A stretch of DNA of 6,301 nt from Nitrososphaerota archaeon (GTDB lineage: Archaea > Thermoproteota > Nitrososphaeria > Nitrososphaerales > Nitrosopumilaceae): the NCBI GenBank assembly GCA_030624325.1, contig JAUXKJ010000026.1:1-6301 (forward strand), written 5' to 3'. This document shows, in pieces, positions 1 through 6,301 of this stretch; the first letter of the stretch is position 1; every line of letters starts with the position of its first letter. Both the position numbers and the translations under genes were made by a program. A model generated the notes under the pieces. The model was not told the origin of the DNA, did not search any database, and worked only from the letters and a program-made list of their open reading frames with translations.

Positions 1-227
1 AAATCAATTTCTTCATTGGTTGTAACGTGTGTCTCAAATGGTTTTTTTGTATTAAAAATCCTACATGCAGCAATTTGTTTTGCATCAGAATCATTAGCAC
101 TTGAAAAAATATTTTTTCTTATTTCAACTTTGATTCCAAAAGTGTCCTCGATGAATTTACCTAGTCTAGTAATTTTTAATTCAGGAACGGATGGTTCATC
201 ATAAAGAAAAATTTTAGAAATTTTCAA
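1..227 (-). CDS. Conserved hypothetical protein, N-terminal part (3' end outside window)
   Basis: An open frame on the minus strand runs from a TTG at 227 to the left edge, giving 75 complete codons with no stop. The product begins MKISKIFLYDEPSVPEL and continues as a mixed alpha/beta sequence (a KFIEDTFGIKVEIRK stretch at about 24-38, then AKQIAACRIF at 49-58). Codon use looks normal, so I take it as a real gene. TTG 227 is the only usual start codon after the in-frame TAA that ends thi4, 15 bases upstream, so the two genes are probably cotranscribed. No Shine-Dalgarno is visible before it. The start resembles what I remember of a small thaumarchaeal family labelled putative metallopeptidase (DUF6775), but no HExxH-type motif lies in the visible part, so that name is only a guess. 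Coding is fairly sure; function is unknown. Confidence 0.72.
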   Translation of the reverse strand, partial: MKISKIFLYDEPSVPELKITRLGKFIEDTFGIKVEIRKNIFSSANDSDAKQIAACRIFNTKKPFETHVTTNEEID

Positions 228-242
228 AAAACAAATCGAATC

Positions 243-1085
243 TTATGTTCCTAATTCTTTGATTTTTGCAGCGGTGACTTCTGCAGCCTTTTTTCCTGAA
301 AATAACATAGAGCCAAAGGTCGGTCCCATACGAGCCAAGCCATGCGTTTCAGTAACTGACATTCCTGCTATCACTAAACCTGGGAAAATTTCGCCAGTTT
401 TTTCAACAACATGTTCTTCACCGTTTTCAACCCACATTGGATTCATTCCCTTCCATTCTACTAGATTTCTATCAACTAGTCGTTTTACTGCAACAGAATC
501 GTGTCCAGATGCATCAATTACCATTTTTGATTCAAAAGCAATTGGGTCAACGCATGTAATGTTACGCGGTAATGCAGAGACTGGCATCCAATTAACTACC
601 ACCCCAGATACTCTACCTTTTTTTAAAACCAGATCATCAAATTTAGTTAAATTTAGAAACTTTACTCCAGAATCGCATGCTCCTGCAATTAATTTTGATA
701 CCGCATGAGGCCCTGGAGTAAGATACAATCCTTCACTGACTTTTTTATACGGAATACCAAGCTCATCCCAAATTTTTTGTGCGGGTTCTCTAACTGTTAC
801 AGGATTCATCATATAACCACCTAACCAATATCCACCACCAAGGTAGTTGTTTTGTTCAACAATCAAAACTTTGAAACCCATTGTAGAAAGCTCTCTCCCT
901 GCAGTTAATCCAGCAGGGCCTGCTCCAATAATTATAACGTCAGATTCGGCCCTATCTATTAAAACAGAGTGAAATTCATCGGCAATTGCTTTTGTAATTT
1001 CAACTTCTCTTACATCAGCAAAAATTTTGTTTGGCCTTTCTTGATTAACTGATTCTTGCATACTACGATAAATTCTAAAACCCAT
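243..1085 (-). CDS. thi4: Thi4-family thiamine thiazole synthase (Cys-type)
   Basis: Thi4 makes the ADP-thiazole precursor of thiamine from NAD and glycine in the cytosol. The 280-residue product has the family plan. The FAD/NAD-binding motif GAGPAG is at 54-59, preceded by the hydrophobic strand DVIIIG. A glycine-rich YLGGGYWLGG segment is at 81-90, a GHD motif at 194-196, and the C-terminal RMGPTFGSM signature at 252-260. In ITCVDP (176-181), Cys178 sits where yeast Thi4 has its sulfur-donating cysteine (CMDP) and where methanogen enzymes have His (HVDP). This suggests self-sacrificing sulfur donation rather than sulfide-dependent turnover. Archaeal members are often mislabelled ribose-1,5-bisphosphate isomerase. 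The start is uncertain: Met1 at 1085, or Met9 at 1061 (MQESVNQERP), which fits the TATA position with a short leader. It follows the zinc-ribbon gene by 51 bases and precedes the partial gene by 15. Confidence 0.93.
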   Translation of the reverse strand: MGFRIYRSMQESVNQERPNKIFADVREVEITKAIADEFHSVLIDRAESDVIIIGAGPAGLTAGRELSTMGFKVLIVEQNNYLGGGYWLGGYMMNPVTVREPAQKIWDELGIPYKKVSEGLYLTPGPHAVSKLIAGACDSGVKFLNLTKFDDLVLKKGRVSGVVVNWMPVSALPRNITCVDPIAFESKMVIDASGHDSVAVKRLVDRNLVEWKGMNPMWVENGEEHVVEKTGEIFPGLVIAGMSVTETHGLARMGPTFGSMLFSGKKAAEVTAAKIKELGT

Positions 1086-1103
1086 TAATAGTTTCCTAAG
1101 AAT

Positions 1104-1111
1104 GGATATAA
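1104..1111 (-). promoter_or_regulatory. TATA-like element of thi4
   Basis: Read on the minus strand this is TTATATCC, the best TATA match in the 51-base gap before thi4. Its centre is about 22 bases from the ATG at 1085 and about 46 from the ATG at 1061. A start site 25-27 bases downstream would fall at about 1081-1083, which fits the Met9 start with a 20-base leader slightly better than the longer start. It suggests thi4 can be transcribed apart from the zinc-ribbon gene. Position and composition are the only evidence. Confidence 0.4.
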
Positions 1112-1121
1112 TTTCAGAAAT

Positions 1122-1147
1122 TTATCTTTGAAAAAATTATCTTTGAA
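1122..1147. repeat. Perfect 11-base direct repeat upstream of thi4
   Basis: TTATCTTTGAA occurs at 1122-1132 and again at 1137-1147, separated by AAAA (15-base period). The second copy contains the last codons and the stop of the zinc-ribbon gene. The first lies just upstream of the thi4 TATA element. It may be a small local duplication or a paired binding site for a regulator. Confidence 0.5.
1131..1136 (-). terminator. Oligo-T terminator after the zinc-ribbon gene
   Basis: On the minus strand a run of six T follows directly after the TAA stop of the zinc-ribbon gene. Archaeal RNA polymerase can terminate at such U-tracts without a hairpin. The run is short, so readthrough into thi4 is likely to some degree. 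Confidence 0.35.
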
Positions 1148-1343
1148 TGTCTCTTTTTATCTGAGAAATTTTAATTTGTTTTAGTTCTTCATCATGAATA
1201 ATTTTTAGACAATTGGAACAGACTCTATCCATTTCTCCCATGCCTGTTGGAGGGGTCAGGCCCATTATATTGAATCTTGATCTAGATGTTTTCAAACTTG
1301 AAATTTCAAATTCTTTGTTGCAAACATAACATGACTTTGCCAT
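1137..1343 (-). CDS. Small zinc-ribbon protein (CxxC...CxxC)
   Basis: The 68-residue product has two CxxC knuckles, CYVC at 5-8 and CSNC at 42-45, separated by 33 residues. This is the usual layout of a single four-cysteine zinc site in small ribbon proteins. The loop between them is basic then glycine/proline rich (SRSRF at 20-24; GLTPPTGMGEM at 28-38). The C-terminal 23 residues are predicted helical and lysine/arginine rich (IIHDEELKQIKISQIKRDIQR), suiting nucleic-acid or protein contact. There is no signal peptide or membrane segment. The ATG at 1343 is well supported, because a TATA-like box lies 27 bases upstream and makes the message leaderless. Small zinc ribbons of this kind are common in archaea and mostly uncharacterised. 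Its target cannot be read from the sequence. Confidence 0.85.
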   Translation of the reverse strand: MAKSCYVCNKEFEISSLKTSRSRFNIMGLTPPTGMGEMDRVCSNCLKIIHDEELKQIKISQIKRDIQR

Positions 1344-1365
1344 ACCATTTTAACGAAAAAAAAGC

Positions 1366-1376
1366 AATTAAAAAAT
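1366..1376 (-). promoter_or_regulatory. TATA box of the zinc-ribbon gene
   Basis: The minus-strand sequence TTTTTTAATTG is centred near 1371, about 27 bases before the ATG at 1343. This is the expected archaeal TATA-to-start distance, so transcription would begin at or next to the start codon (leaderless message). Confidence 0.5.
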
Positions 1377-1543
1377 TTGACTAACAACTTGTAACAATCC
1401 ACTATCAAAAAATTAGGTTCTACTAATCAAATTTTGGTATTAATTCAAGTTTCAAAACTTTAGAAAACTAATCTACTCTTGTTTCATCGGCAATTTTTGG
1501 TAAGAAATTTCTTTATTGTGACTAAAATTCCCCCTCTCAAAAA

Positions 1544-1550
1544 TTTATAT
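1544..1550 (+). promoter_or_regulatory. TATA box of the reductase-sulfurtransferase operon
   Basis: TTTATAT is preceded by a purine-rich AAAAA that could serve as BRE. Its centre at 1547 predicts a transcription start near 1573, 2-3 bases before the TTG start at 1576. The agreement supports both the promoter and the unusual start codon. Confidence 0.62.
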
Positions 1551-1553
1551 CCA

Positions 1554-1577
1554 AATTCGCGGAAGTTGAATCGAATT
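1554..1577. promoter_or_regulatory. Inverted repeat over the predicted transcription start (possible operator)
   Basis: AATTCG at 1554-1559 and CGAATT at 1572-1577 form perfect 6-base arms around 12 bases. The element begins right after the TATA box and covers the predicted start site and the first bases of the reductase gene. A bound regulator here would block archaeal initiation. Six-base arms in AT-rich DNA can occur by chance. Confidence 0.3.
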
Positions 1578-3384
1578 GACGGCAACTAATCTTAAACAAT
1601 CTAGTCCTGATTCTAAATTGCCTAGAGAAAACTGGGCAAGAATGGAAGAAGCAGAGAATTTTGCAAAAAATGTAAAACTTTACCGTCAAGGAAAAATTGA
1701 CCATGCCAATTTCAGACGATTTAGGCTTCAACATGGAGCTTATGGAACTAGAATGACTGATGATTATGCAATGGTAAGAATAAAACTTCCTGCAGGTGAA
1801 ATTTATCCCAATCAACTAGAAAAAATTTCTCAACTCAGCGAAACATTCTCTATTGGAAGCGCCCATATCTCTACAAGACAAAACATTCAGCTGCACTGGG
1901 TCGTTCTTGAAGATGTTTCAGAAATAATGCGCGGCTTGGCCGAAGTTGGTCTGACCTCAAGAGAAGCTTGTGGGAATACTGTTAGAACTATAATGTGTAG
2001 TCCTCTTGCTGGCGTCTGTCATGATGAAGTGTTTGATCCAACCCCATATGCAATTGCTACTACAAAGTTTCTTCTAAGAAACCCATTAAACCAAAACCTT
2101 CCAAGGAAATTCAAATTCAATTTTACATGCTGTGAAAAACACGGAATGGCAAGAATTGTTGATGTAGGTTTGATTCCACAAAAGAGAGATCTTGACGGAA
2201 AGACTCAACGTGGTTTCAAAGTATTTCTAGGAGGCGGTCTTGGAAACAAATCTTTTGTTGCACACCAGCTTGAAGATTTTACTCCAGAAGATGATCTACT
2301 ATACACCTCTATTGCAGTTCTTCGAATATTTGATAGAATGGGAAACAGAAAAAACATGGCAAGAAACCGAATGCGATATTTAGTTGATGAAATGGGTTGG
2401 GAAAAATTCCAAAACTTGGTTCTAAAAGAAAGATCAATTGTTAGGGCAACCCAATCAGTTATTGTCAAACTTGACGTTGATGACACTCCTCAAGAAATTA
2501 AACGACCAATTTCAGTATCAGATACTGATGGAAAACCAACTCCCGAGGGATTTTCTAATTGGTTCAAAACAACTACCTACAAGCAAAAACAGGATGGATA
2601 CTGTTCAGTGTTCATTACATTAGAAGCCGGAGATGTAACAGCTAACCAACTCAAAGCTCTAGCTGAAATTTGTCGAGAATTTTCTGCTGAAGGCTTTGCA
2701 AGAAATGGATTTTCACAAGACATTGTATTTAGATGGGTAAGCGAAGATGACCTGCCTAGAATGTATGCAAAACTATTGCAAGTTGGCTTGGCAAATCCAG
2801 GCTCACTTACCATGGCCTCTCCAGTTGGATGTTCAGGCACAACTTCGTGTAATTTGGCCTTGACAAACTCTCATAGGCTAGCAAAAGAAATTCAAAGAAA
2901 GTTTCTAGATCTCAAACTAAACGAAGATGATGACCTCAGAGATGCAACAATCAAGATTAGTGGTTGTCCGAACTCTTGTGGCCAACACGAGATTGCAACC
3001 ATCGGATTTTACGGTGGAGGAGGTAGAGTTGGCAAGGACATGTACCCAAATTACACTATGTCACTTGGCGGTAGAGCCGATGGAGATGCTATGTTAGGAG
3101 TCAACTGTATGCGAGTTCCTGTAAAGCGAATAATTCCTGTTATTTTAAAAATAATTGAATTATTCAAGAAAAATAAACATCCAAATGATTCTTTTTCATC
3201 TTGGATCGATAGAATCGTCAAAGGAAACGAAAACTCTCAAATAAAATCAGTAAATGATTTCAAAAAAGAATTATCTCCTCTAGTGGTTCCTCCATCCAAA
3301 GAACAAGAAAAGGATTTCTATACCGATTATGGTGAAGATACAGGTTATCATGCCATGACTGGAAAAGGTGAGTGCGCTGCTTGA
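1576..3384 (+). CDS. Siroheme/[4Fe-4S] sulfite (or nitrite) reductase, ferredoxin type
   Basis: This cytosolic enzyme carries out the six-electron reduction of sulfite to sulfide (or nitrite to ammonia). The 602 residues show the duplicated family plan: ferredoxin-like half-domain and catalytic half at about 50-300, then the same order at about 325-535. The [4Fe-4S]/siroheme cysteines are C419 and C425 (CSGTTSC) and C464 and C468 (GCPNSCG). Likely siroheme and substrate residues are R101 (STRQNIQLHW), R137 (NTVRTIMCSPLAG), K178 and K180 (LPRKFKF). Y64 (DDYAMVRIK) and C132 (EACGNTVR) match the Tyr-Cys pair of Mycobacterium NirA, a sulfite reductase, so I favour sulfite. The downstream sulfurtransferase agrees. 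A 65-residue C-terminal extension ends in GKGECAA. TTG 1576 is chosen as start because the TATA box predicts transcription from about 1573, giving a nearly leaderless message. Confidence 0.93.
   Translation: MTATNLKQSSPDSKLPRENWARMEEAENFAKNVKLYRQGKIDHANFRRFRLQHGAYGTRMTDDYAMVRIKLPAGEIYPNQLEKISQLSETFSIGSAHISTRQNIQLHWVVLEDVSEIMRGLAEVGLTSREACGNTVRTIMCSPLAGVCHDEVFDPTPYAIATTKFLLRNPLNQNLPRKFKFNFTCCEKHGMARIVDVGLIPQKRDLDGKTQRGFKVFLGGGLGNKSFVAHQLEDFTPEDDLLYTSIAVLRIFDRMGNRKNMARNRMRYLVDEMGWEKFQNLVLKERSIVRATQSVIVKLDVDDTPQEIKRPISVSDTDGKPTPEGFSNWFKTTTYKQKQDGYCSVFITLEAGDVTANQLKALAEICREFSAEGFARNGFSQDIVFRWVSEDDLPRMYAKLLQVGLANPGSLTMASPVGCSGTTSCNLALTNSHRLAKEIQRKFLDLKLNEDDDLRDATIKISGCPNSCGQHEIATIGFYGGGGRVGKDMYPNYTMSLGGRADGDAMLGVNCMRVPVKRIIPVILKIIELFKKNKHPNDSFSSWIDRIVKGNENSQIKSVNDFKKELSPLVVPPSKEQEKDFYTDYGEDTGYHAMTGKGECAA
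3367..3371 (+). promoter_or_regulatory. Ribosome-binding site that sets the sulfurtransferase start
   Basis: GGTGA complements the 3' end of archaeal 16S rRNA and lies inside the last codons of the reductase gene, 9 bases before TTG 3381. It rules out the GTG at 3372, which touches it, and points to the TTG that overlaps the reductase stop (TTGA). It is the only clear Shine-Dalgarno seen in the window, as expected for an internal operon gene. Confidence 0.65.
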
Positions 3385-4184
3385 GCAAAGAAAAAACACT
3401 ACATCCCACTGTAGAGGCAGATTCACTTCGTTCTGAGCTGCGCGATAAAAGCGTTAGAGTAATTGACGTAAGAAAAGAAGAAGATTATAAGAAAAGCCAC
3501 ATTCCGACCTCGGTGAATCTTCCTCTTGCTAATTTGTTATCTGATGATTCCCCTGAAAGGGTAGTCAAGCTAGTACAATCATTTGGAATAGACGATGAAA
3601 CTCCTGTAGTGGTATATGATGATACATTTGGGGCTCTCGCATCAAGGGTTGCTTGGACCTTCCAATATTTGGGTCATAGCGATGTTTCCCTTCTTGATGT
3701 TACATATGGACAATGGAACTCGCTTGGTCTTGAAACCGACGACAAAATACCTTCGTATGACTCCAAAAATCATTCCGTAAATTTACATCCAGAAATTATG
3801 GCAACAGCTGACTATCTTGAAAAAGCCAAAACAAAAGAAAATGTTGTTCTATTAGATAACAGAGAGCGATTAAATTTCTTAGAACAACATATTCCAGGAG
3901 CAATTAACATTCCGTATAGAAGTCTTGGTTCTGAAGATAGAATCCTAAAAACTAAAACTGAAATGAAAAGATTAATTGAAAACAGAGGAATTTCTCCTGA
4001 CGCTGAAATTATAACTTACTGTGGAAGTGTTGGTACACTTTCAGGCTTGGCATACTATGCATTAAAATCTGTCAACATGCCAAACGTAAAGTTGTATGTT
4101 CGTTCATTCAAAGAATGGAAGACTCTAAAAAAACCAATTGAAAAACAACAAAACGCAACCTATTGGGATCTTTCTGCAGAATAA
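3381..4184 (+). CDS. Tandem-rhodanese sulfurtransferase (thiosulfate/3-mercaptopyruvate type)
   Basis: This enzyme moves sulfane sulfur through a cysteine persulfide. From TTG 3381 the product has 267 residues, normal for two-domain rhodaneses. Domain 1 (about 14-118) has the VIDVRKEEDYKKSHIP entry motif, but Asp-Asp (80-81, VYDDTFG) where a catalytic Cys would be, so it is the usual inactive half. Domain 2 (about 143-255) repeats the motif (LLDNRERLNFLEQHIPGA) and carries Cys214 in the loop CGSVGT, followed by the SFKEW element. The loop resembles the mercaptopyruvate form CGSGVT but has Gly and Val swapped, so the substrate is unclear. There is no signal peptide; it should be cytosolic. The gene overlaps the reductase by 4 bases (TTGA) with GGTGA in front, so it is translationally coupled. 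A role in handling sulfur from the reductase or feeding biosynthesis is inferred. Confidence 0.9.
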   Translation: MSKEKTLHPTVEADSLRSELRDKSVRVIDVRKEEDYKKSHIPTSVNLPLANLLSDDSPERVVKLVQSFGIDDETPVVVYDDTFGALASRVAWTFQYLGHSDVSLLDVTYGQWNSLGLETDDKIPSYDSKNHSVNLHPEIMATADYLEKAKTKENVVLLDNRERLNFLEQHIPGAINIPYRSLGSEDRILKTKTEMKRLIENRGISPDAEIITYCGSVGTLSGLAYYALKSVNMPNVKLYVRSFKEWKTLKKPIEKQQNATYWDLSAE

Positions 4185-4187
4185 AAT

Positions 4188-5288
4188 TTAGTTTTGCGCA
4201 ATTTCATTTCTTATCTTTTGAGTAACAATAGCTTCAATATTATCAAATAGGTCATTCATTTTTTGTTTATTTTCTTGCAAATAAATCAGTCCTCTGTCTT
4301 TTAGTCTAATTTTCCATAATCTAATTTCTCTGTGTTCTTCGAAAAACTGATCTATCATTTGCTGTCCGTATTGGTTAGGATCAATGAATGTATCAAAATT
4401 TTCAATTGTTTTTTCTACATCTTCTTCTTCGAAAGATGATTTTACAGCTTGAATTGCTTCACTTAGTCCTTTGAGACTCTTAAGAGCAACTGGCAATCTT
4501 TTCTTACTAGTCCCCAAGAACCTTTTCTTTTCTACGCCAACTTTTTCAGCCATTTCTGGAACAAGATCATATGTTGCCACCTTGGTGAATCCTTTCCTTG
4601 TTTCGTGTTTTACAATTAGTCCTTTTTCCAAAAGTTTGTCAAGAGCTAGGAGAGCTTTATTTTTATCAATAAATGTCGTCCAAACAATTGAACCGATTGT
4701 ATGGTAACCTTGTCTTATGGATTCTATCACAACTACTTCTTCAATTCGTTTGAAACCTTCTTCAGCTCTTACATTTACAAAGTCTAAGTCTTTTATTGCC
4801 TTTCTCGCATTCTTTACATCAATTTCAATTGATCGCTTTAGTGCTTCCAATGACTCAGGTATTTGGCTCAATAATGAAAGGAAACATGATTTGTTATACC
4901 AGGCCATTCCAAACGTTGGTTCTGATTCAATTGCCTTTTCCACAGAATCAAGTGCTTTAGAATAATTTTTTTGTTCATAGTGTACAAGTGCTTTTAAATT
5001 CCAAGTTTCTGCATTTGTAACGTCGATATCTAAAATCTTATCATAGACTTTTAATGCATCACTATAATCCTCAAGATGGAATCTGGAATAACCTAATTTT
5101 AAAAGTGCTTCAACATTATCAGGATCAATTCTTAAAACTTGCTCAAAAGCTCTAGCAGCATCATCAAGTCTTTCATCAGCCATTAAATTGATTCCTTTTT
5201 TGAAAAGCTTTTTCTTGTTGTAATCTGCATCAACTAGGCTGGTATTTTCTTCTTTCTTTTCTGACTTTTTTCGAAACGGCCTTTTCAT
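4188..5288 (-). CDS. TPR protein with C-terminal winged-helix-like domain
   Basis: The 366-residue product starts with a very basic tail (MKRPFRKKSEKKEE). About four tetratricopeptide repeats follow, at roughly 25-58, 59-92, 93-126 and 127-160, with the expected alternating residues (LGYSRFHLEDYSDALKVYDK; WNLKALVHYEQKNYSKALD). Residues about 183-247 look like a winged helix: helices around VVVIESIRQGYHTIGSIV and ALLALDKLLEKGLIV, then a KHETRKGFTKVATYDL beta wing. The last 115 residues are charged and helical, with no recognised domain. There is no signal peptide or membrane span. TPRs bind proteins, so this may be a scaffold or regulator that contacts DNA or RNA; the partner is unknown. ATG 5288 is preferred over TTG 5297 because the TATA box at 5314-5321 places transcription start near 5292. 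It ends 3 bases from the sulfurtransferase stop, so the transcripts converge and probably overlap. Confidence 0.85.
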   Translation of the reverse strand: MKRPFRKKSEKKEENTSLVDADYNKKKLFKKGINLMADERLDDAARAFEQVLRIDPDNVEALLKLGYSRFHLEDYSDALKVYDKILDIDVTNAETWNLKALVHYEQKNYSKALDSVEKAIESEPTFGMAWYNKSCFLSLLSQIPESLEALKRSIEIDVKNARKAIKDLDFVNVRAEEGFKRIEEVVVIESIRQGYHTIGSIVWTTFIDKNKALLALDKLLEKGLIVKHETRKGFTKVATYDLVPEMAEKVGVEKKRFLGTSKKRLPVALKSLKGLSEAIQAVKSSFEEEDVEKTIENFDTFIDPNQYGQQMIDQFFEEHREIRLWKIRLKDRGLIYLQENKQKMNDLFDNIEAIVTQKIRNEIAQN

Positions 5289-5313
5289 TAATCTCAAAAG
5301 GGTAACTAATCTA

Positions 5314-5321
5314 GATAAATA
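5314..5321 (-). promoter_or_regulatory. TATA box of the TPR gene
   Basis: The minus strand reads TATTTATC, centred about 30 bases before ATG 5288, which predicts a leader of about 4 bases. It overlaps the 8-base palindrome ATCTAGAT (5309-5316). The same AT-rich patch could also serve the divergent collagen-like gene if that gene begins at TTG 5361. Confidence 0.5.
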
Positions 5322-5399
5322 CTATTCCTATTTTCCTAAATTCCGTGCCTAATTTTCACTTTGAAAATACAAAAATACTTCATAATTACATCATCGGTA

Positions 5400-6301
5400 G
5401 TGTCCAGCAATCCCAAAATTGAAATTTCAGGCACCTCTCCCTTCAAACTTCCCTCTGGAGTTTTTGAGGTCCAAATATCAATTTCAGATAAAAAACCAAC
5501 CGAAGATAGTATATCTAAGAAAAATTTTCCTACACTGTGGACTGATAATTTTCATTTAATGGTTACAGAAAGACAATTCACCGAAGTTTTAGGAAGTGAT
5601 AAAAACCCAATTCCAAAATCGGTATTTACTTTAGATTCTGCATGGATTGTTGTTGCTGATCAGTTTTCTTCAATTCATTCGGTTTTTGAAATTCCATTAA
5701 AAAAACCGGTAACTGCACCCCCAAAACCAGTTACAAAACTACCTCCTGAGGAAAAACCAATTCGAGAAACAAAAATTCCAACTCCTGAACGAATACCTCC
5801 AAGAGGTACTGCAGGTATTCAAGGCGAACGTGGTGGCCGAGGTAATCAGGGAGAACAGGGCGAAAAGGGTTCAATGGGTCCTCCAGGTCCTCAAGGTGAT
5901 CAAGGATCATCAGGTCATGAAGGTTTACCAGGTGACAAAGGTGACAAAGGACCACCAGGTGACAAAGGAGACAAAGGATCATCAGGTCCCAGAGGTGAAA
6001 AAGGAGCTAAAGGACTAACTGGTGACAAAGGTGACAAGGGTGACAAAGGCCAACCAGGTCCGGCAGGTGATAAGGGAGACAAGGGACTAAGAGGTCCATC
6101 TGGAGACAAGGGAGACAAAGGCTCACTAGGAGAGCGCGGTCTACGTGGTACACTAGGTGACAAGGGACCTACTGGAGAATCTGGTGCAAAAGGTGAGAAA
6201 GGAAGAACAGGTGACCCAGGAACTGAAGGAGAAAAAGGTCCACAGGGATCACAAGGAAAATCAGGAGACAAAGGATTAACAGGAGTTCCAGGACCTCCAG
6301 G
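5400..6301 (+). CDS. Collagen-like (Gly-X-Y repeat) protein, N-terminal part (3' end outside window)
   Basis: The frame from GTG 5400 to the right edge has no stop (300 complete codons). Residues 1-99 form a compact, beta-rich, unrecognised domain (MSSNPKIEISG; LDSAWIVVADQF; HSVFEIPL). Residues 100-135 are a proline/lysine linker (KKPVTAPPKP, IPPR). From 136 onward every third residue is Gly: 55 triplets without a break, 13 of them Gly-Asp-Lys. This is the collagen triple-helix pattern, so a rod-like trimer is expected. No convincing signal peptide exists from GTG 5400. A TTG at 5361 would add MKIQKYFIITSSV, a weak hydrophobic stretch. GTG is preferred because regular codon use begins there and a weak TATA-like CAAAAATA lies about 26 bases upstream. 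Surface, matrix or cytosolic location cannot be decided. The repeat part is much richer in G than its neighbours, as glycine codons require. Confidence 0.88.
   Translation, partial: MSSNPKIEISGTSPFKLPSGVFEVQISISDKKPTEDSISKKNFPTLWTDNFHLMVTERQFTEVLGSDKNPIPKSVFTLDSAWIVVADQFSSIHSVFEIPLKKPVTAPPKPVTKLPPEEKPIRETKIPTPERIPPRGTAGIQGERGGRGNQGEQGEKGSMGPPGPQGDQGSSGHEGLPGDKGDKGPPGDKGDKGSSGPRGEKGAKGLTGDKGDKGDKGQPGPAGDKGDKGLRGPSGDKGDKGSLGERGLRGTLGDKGPTGESGAKGEKGRTGDPGTEGEKGPQGSQGKSGDKGLTGVPGPP
5805..6301 (+). repeat. Collagen-type 9-base periodic repeat region
   Basis: A GGN codon occurs every 9 bases throughout. Within it, near-identical GGTGACAAA-type units are tandem at 5931-5948, 5958-5975, 6021-6047, 6066-6083 and 6102-6119. 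Synonymous codons vary (GGT/GGA, AAA/AAG, GAC/GAT), so it is a diverged protein repeat and not a fresh microsatellite. Several apparent frames on the other strand here are shadows of this periodicity. Confidence 0.85.

Follow-up and report, generated by a model that had tools for sequence, protein, structure and literature searches.

What is a long Gly-X-Y protein doing in an archaeon, when the collagen-like proteins of prokaryotes are discussed mainly as surface proteins of bacteria? The question is raised by a stretch of 6,301 nucleotides from a Nitrososphaerota archaeon (assembly GCA_030624325.1, contig JAUXKJ010000026.1, positions 1 to 6,301 of the forward strand; hereafter the window), at the right end of which a collagen-like gene starts at 5400 on the plus strand and is still open at 6301. 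The gene belongs to a syntenic archaeal family that lacks an export signal, carries two family-specific, uncharacterised domains and shows a pattern of substitution indicative of purifying selection. We assign a probability of about 0.5 to the reading that its product, a lineage-specific collagen-like protein of the class Nitrososphaeria encoded mostly in single copy, works as an intracellular homotrimeric rod.

Architecture and extent of the family

The frame that runs open to the window end has two candidate starts, TTG at 5361 and GTG at 5400. Counted from the GTG, residues 1-135 are non-collagen and include a Pro-rich linker (approximately residues 101-135), and they are followed by exactly 55 unbroken Gly-X-Y triplets (5805..6299, plus strand), 13 of them GDK and four GEK, with GDK and GEK tending to recur every four triplets; the window ends inside the codon after triplet 55. 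An earlier note on this DNA, made from the sequence alone, had described at least 55 such triplets behind a separate N-terminal domain and a Pro-rich linker, and this description is confirmed. The window protein matches Pfam Collagen PF01391 at 98.3 bits (cut-off 27.2, E 2.1e-28), and glycine makes up only 2.2% of its first 134 residues, so that a chance origin of the run is excluded. A 36-base DNA repeat lies within the run (5956-6121). Five different codon combinations encode the 13 GDK triplets, which are therefore not copies of one freshly duplicated unit. A long Pro/Ser/Leu-rich open frame antisense to the repeats (5915-6301, minus strand) most likely arises mechanically, as the complement of the GGN codons, and is not a gene.

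Relatives spanning the full query length were found in a scan of genome contigs, in which the best 80 of 109 relatives comprise 25 archaeal and 55 bacterial loci. The archaeal loci (L001-L021, L026, L036, L047 and L061), without L026, whose head is masked by N, form together with the window a set of 25 proteins. Complete sequences are available for 22, and only partial ones come from L015, L017 and the window. Most analyses read L013, L014 and L036 from one codon after the ATG, and a recheck of upstream distances read them from the ATG itself. The GDKGDKGDK block of the window (6021..6047, plus strand) has its counterpart GDKGDKGDKG in all 25 proteins, and head, linker, Gly-X-Y run and tail occur together in all 22 complete ones, where the run extends to 68-163 triplets.

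The N-terminal domain, or head, of about 100 residues (5400..5699, plus strand) is predicted to be a beta-sandwich of no known family and has 19 invariant columns in 25 sequences, which are present in an alignment (A3) where the window shares 37-66% identity with the other 24. The AlphaFold2 model of the window head consists mainly of beta structure and has two short helices (predicted local distance difference test, pLDDT, 90.5; predicted template modelling score 0.81), and the head of the complete orthologue L001 (436 residues) is modelled at pLDDT 79-96 per block. Neither head nor tail reaches the cut-off of any Pfam family; the head has no match among PDB sequences at E 1, and nothing firm against PHROGs, with Foldseek (PDB and viral) or with VIA-align. 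Region-wise protein searches for head or tail in other architectures returned family members only, with low sensitivity because just 70 and 8 candidates were scored. The Pro/Lys-rich linker (5700..5804, plus strand) is probably disordered, judging from its composition and from residues 104-281 of the L001 model, where pLDDT stays below 50. Among the protein matches, P0002-P0007 have nearly identical heads and lengths of 262-399 residues, and P0007 has no tail; variation in repeat number, fragments and assembly collapse are alternative explanations of the differences in length.

At the other end, the 22 complete orthologues and L026 carry a GPRGPPGPPG-type cap, a short spacer and a tail of about 35 residues that ends in EEQIKLMSYLY or similar directly before the stop codon, with 16 invariant columns in the 23 sequences. 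AlphaFold2 predicts two helices in the tail of L001 (404-419 and 425-435, blocks at pLDDT 84-94). Cap and tail together supply the C-terminal domain that the earlier note had hoped to find in a full gene, and by comparison with its orthologues the window gene would be expected to end in the same way. Two further blocks are widely shared, one of KGLTG[VI] type in 21 of the 25 proteins and one of GPQGIQG type in 20 (it is missing from L008 and L047; the remaining three are the incomplete members).

A search with the window protein gave 4072 matches at E ≤0.001 among 7992 scored; 120 were listed and 23 of these examined, and vertebrate otolin and MARCO are among those listed, presumably through Gly-X-Y. 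The head profile (E 0.001) matches 187 of 400 genomes drawn from class Nitrososphaeria, with one copy in 185, two in G208 and two pieces of one gene in G236, and the head is found once in each of six genomes searched for it. A protein of this kind is thus not a rarity. Of 300 genomes sampled across the phylum as a whole, 43 matched the head, and every one of these was already among the class matches. When 12 head-bearing genomes were searched with PF01391, nine matched at the head gene only and three (G005, G106 and G136) carried further matches; the tail profile has one match in 10 of 13 genomes, each of which also has the head once, and the remaining three lack both.

Archaeal AmoA (PF12942) is present in 249 of the same 400 genomes. 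Head and AmoA occur together in 162, the head alone in 25, AmoA alone in 87 and neither in 126; the family is widespread among ammonia oxidisers and not universal, and since 87 of 249 AmoA-positive genomes are without the head it is not essential to ammonia oxidation. Many of these 87 genomes are large (e.g. G075, G086 and G103). Three AmoA-positive genomes of 1.5-1.6 Mb (G073, G081 and G102) have neither the head nor any PF01391 match, and a lineage-wide loss is possible there. The label 'marine' that had been attached to the archaeon is not established.

Estimates by the method of Nei and Gojobori indicate purifying selection on the gene. For the head, window and L001 differ by dN 0.22 and dS 1.18 (ratio ~0.19) and L001 and L002 by dN 0.10 and dS 1.07, and the tails of L001 and L002 by dN 0.04 and dS 1.09, all with the reservation that a dS above 1 is near saturation.

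Charge layout of the repeats

In tandem GDK units each Lys is followed by Gly-Asp, and this KGD pairing had been proposed as the electrostatic arrangement that stabilises the helix. The counts do not bear this out. The window protein contains six KGD and one KGE, and as these seven are no more numerous than in shuffled triplets (mean 7.6, p 0.75; 2000 shuffles of whole triplets per protein) the pairing follows from composition. Across the 25 proteins the K-G-D/E count is above the shuffle mean in four, equal to it in one and below it in 20, with a lowest p of 0.32, and is enriched in none.

What is enriched is the combination of an acidic residue in X with Lys in Y of the same triplet, by 2.1- to 3.4-fold and above all of 1000 shuffles in every one of the 25 proteins. 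These triplets recur with a period of four triplets, or 12 residues, the lag-4 z being at least 2 in 23 of 25 (3.5 in the window; 1.9 in L017 and 1.6 in L018), although z-values pooled over the proteins treat relatives as independent and are descriptive only. Evenly spaced charges are in themselves no peculiarity of the family, because bacterial controls show periods too: among the 15 of 55 bacterial loci that passed a filter (plus-strand frames with a run of at least 50 triplets and at least eight GDK or GEK), two (L024 and L025) have a lag-4 z of at least 2 and several have 5- or 6-triplet periods. The 4-triplet period may be a product of tandem DNA duplication.

KGE and KGD pairs stabilise host-guest peptides, and (DKG)10 gives no stable homotrimer, according to a review (PMC7824840). 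As KGD pairs are not enriched in the family and that peptide is unstable as a homotrimer, the 12-residue layout may serve register or lateral packing, with stability carried by the Pro-rich triplets and the C-terminal cap.

Location, mechanism and rival readings

The earlier note had imagined a role in surface coating, adhesion or a matrix, which the ends of the protein make doubtful. A signal-like N terminus is found in none of the 25 proteins (highest 15-residue mean hydropathy within residues 1-45, 1.33; no dedicated predictor was used), an LPxTG motif in none of the 25, of which 22 are complete, and a membrane-like C terminus in none of the 25, three of which are incomplete there (longest uncharged run in the last 45 residues, 8). 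Nor is a signal likely to have been missed upstream of the GTG. An A/T-rich, TATA-box-like promoter box, AAATACAAAAATACTT, lies at 5365..5380 (plus strand), 19 bases before the start; it recurs with at most three mismatches in 22 of the 25 members (five in L013 and L014; L020 is masked by N) and in 24 of 25 its distance to the start is 18-19 bases, which leaves no room for an N-terminal extension, and an in-frame stop occurs within three codons upstream of the start in 11 of 25. The transcript likely begins at the GTG itself without a leader, as is common in this archaeal group. With no export signal in evidence, an intracellular rod is more probable than a surface adhesin, and the cytoplasm is probably the place of the protein and our first choice.

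In the mechanism that we propose, the C-terminal two-helix tail would gather three chains, the cap next to it would nucleate the triple helix, and zipping would run from there towards the N terminus. At the collagen rise of 0.286 nm per residue the product would be a stiff rod of ~58-140 nm for 68-163 triplets, on which the 12-residue charge bands correspond to ~3.4 nm. The flexible linker would bear three beta-sandwich heads, making a multivalent scaffold or spacer, and the heads could bind a conserved partner, perhaps the tetratricopeptide-repeat (TPR) protein encoded next door. The cells of these archaea are very small, and a rod of 58-140 nm would span a considerable part of their width. 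We offer as a speculation, in itself rather doubtful, that a trimeric cytoplasmic collagen of this size, acting with its TPR neighbour, is part of the cell's structure, as an internal spacer, a tether or a cytoskeleton-like scaffold.

Several observations weigh against an intracellular homotrimeric rod. In the monomer model of L001 most of the linker and collagen region falls under pLDDT 50, which is what a chain modelled alone should give. The tail is variable among divergent members, since of eight with closed frames six have the LY tail at their end (L111, L113, L116, L119, L120 and L122) and two a different sequence (L112 and L115); here the short N-domain frames of L105 and L108 reach the locus end, L106, L107 and L109 gave no motif match, and L117 (masked by N) and L121 (reading frame interrupted within the repeats) were taken as they stand. 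The absence of the head from more than a third of AmoA-positive genomes, given above, belongs with these points, as does the fact that no experiment on this family was found in the papers searched. The head is also only 67% identical between the window and L001, compared with 77-90% for four larger neighbours (a 68-residue neighbour has 50%), and a head changing faster than the larger neighbours would fit a surface protein as well.

Such a surface or matrix protein would have to be exported without a classical signal peptide, and unconventional export is possible; its rods would project from or underlie the S-layer, and its heads would bind cells, particles or S-layer glycans. One paper (PMC13037477), by annotation and inference, places an LPXTG-anchored collagen-like adhesin of such an archaeon at the envelope. 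Given the lack of any signal-like N terminus or anchor, we regard a surface role as a possibility to be kept in mind, though not a probable one. A further reading, in which the repeats fail to fold into a stable triple helix at the temperature of growth and simply connect the two folded domains as a charged, largely disordered linker, seems to us unlikely. Hydroxyproline is not expected in archaea, Asp and not Pro leads the X position in the window (15 versus 9 of 55), and in 21 of 25 proteins the number of K-G-D/E pairs does not exceed the shuffle mean, all of which, with the behaviour of (DKG)10, speaks for disorder; yet disorder needs no such regularity as a glycine at every third residue, unbroken through the 55 triplets of the window and the 68-163 of complete orthologues, Pro pooled over the 25 proteins is the commonest residue in X (953) and the third commonest in Y (383), and a conserved Pro-rich cap adjoins the predicted helical tail. 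Collagen repeats are common in phage fibres, and a virus-derived piece such as part of a tail fibre could have been taken into the chromosome, but the chromosomal neighbourhood is constant, neither head nor tail has a PHROGs match below E 0.05, and two scans of viral_contigs, one using the head by itself and the other its alignment, gave 5 and 85 pattern matches, none of them confirmed, so that a viral origin is highly improbable.

Genomic neighbourhood and known systems

The gene is flanked on its left by a divergently transcribed gene for a protein with TPR domains according to Pfam (4188-5297, minus strand). This TPR gene adjoins the head in all 25 archaeal loci; in 40 further loci, two of which (L123 and L124) are pieces of one broken gene, the head is present in 40 and the divergent TPR gene in 38, with no TPR match in L113 and L119. 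The pairing is kept even at ~38% head identity (L120 and L122). A shared promoter region or a partnership of the products is possible, and there is a hint that the TPR protein is a candidate partner of the collagen-like protein; it stays a hint because the clade may conserve its gene order in general.

Farther left are a reductase of the NIR/SIR family (1576-3384, plus strand), present in 23 of the 25 archaeal loci and below the cut-off of every one of the 11 NCBIfam models listed (NirA, CysI, CobG and others), and a rhodanese protein (3372-4184, plus strand), present in 24; together they form an unplaced sirohaem-type reductase beside a sulfurtransferase (1576-4184, plus strand). A Thi4-type thiazole synthase (243-1085, minus strand) scores above the cut-off of TIGR00292, the model for sulfide-dependent ADP-thiazole synthase (228.3 versus 148.3 bits), and is found in 20 of the 25 loci; L007, L008 and L020 have no Thi4 within the flank, and L011 and L018 are short contigs. 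The Thi4-family protein of the window reads DASGHDS at the motif where suicidal Thi4 enzymes have a Cys. Between the synthase and the reductase is a gene for a 68-residue Cys-rich protein (1137-1343, minus strand) with two CxxC pairs and no Pfam family above cut-off, relatives of which at E 1e-5 are present in L001 and L002 only among the 25 loci. Downstream of the 23 complete-gene loci are GTPase-like (15), phosphatase-like (11) and arginyl-tRNA-synthetase-like (8) genes, all named by eye, and a gene for a 95-residue protein (10). The last is an uncharacterised protein with no Pfam match, encoded just 3' of the collagen gene in L001 (7348-7635).

Should a real triple helix form inside the cell, the family would represent a cell-structural element of a new type, kept in a large part of an archaeal lineage, with charges laid out in a way uncommon for collagen: Asp and Lys share one triplet every 12 residues in place of KGD pairs. 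In keeping with the earlier note, by which very few archaeal collagens have been studied, no dedicated study was found among the literature matches listed, and the main text of a review of prokaryotic collagen-like proteins (PMC8968730) has no word starting with 'archae'. A collagen-like variant with its own head and tail is real and conserved, and is not described in the literature searched.

The streptococcal proteins Scl1 and Scl2 (NCBIfam NF038330 and NF038329) likewise join a long charged Gly-X-Y region to a non-collagen N-terminal domain, but the archaeal family has no signal-like N terminus or LPXTG motif, and where those proteins carry a wall anchor it ends in a helical tail. The window scores 92.8 of the 325 bits required by the SclB model and 88.7 of 400 for SclA, and the six orthologues tried, of the 22 complete, are all below both cut-offs (best 291.3 of 325 and 280.9 of 400). 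Names such as 'LPXTG-anchored adhesin' can therefore be approached through Gly-X-Y composition alone, and call for caution. PMC13037477 reports LPXTG-anchored collagen-like adhesins of Candidatus N. chungbukensis MY2 as highly expressed at low salinity, with one in the proteome; given that members of our family reach 291.3 of 325 bits for a like-named model, that adhesin may be the present family under a misleading name.

Other Gly-X-Y proteins of the class do exist in AmoA-positive genomes (L131 in G075 and L132 in G103), but these have a long hydrophobic start, and both genomes are without the head and G075 without the tail. Legionella Lcl has a C-terminal domain after its collagen region, as in the archaeal family, although the archaeal tail is helical and only about 35 residues long; against the Lcl model (NF046116, cut-off 500 bits) the window scores 93.7 and six orthologues at most 268.6, with the best stretches mainly in the Gly-X-Y part. 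For the head, the best fold match is the ligand-binding region of SgrA from Enterococcus faecium (PDB 5fce), which is not firm. In its proposed trimeric form the protein recalls the 'bouquet' proteins of the C1q and collectin type, with a trimeric collagen stalk and three globular heads. The analogy is functional only, as a Pfam scan of the archaeal family finds no C1q- or collectin-type domain, and the archaeal, probably intracellular protein differs in bearing its heads at the N terminus and its proposed nucleating tail at the C terminus.
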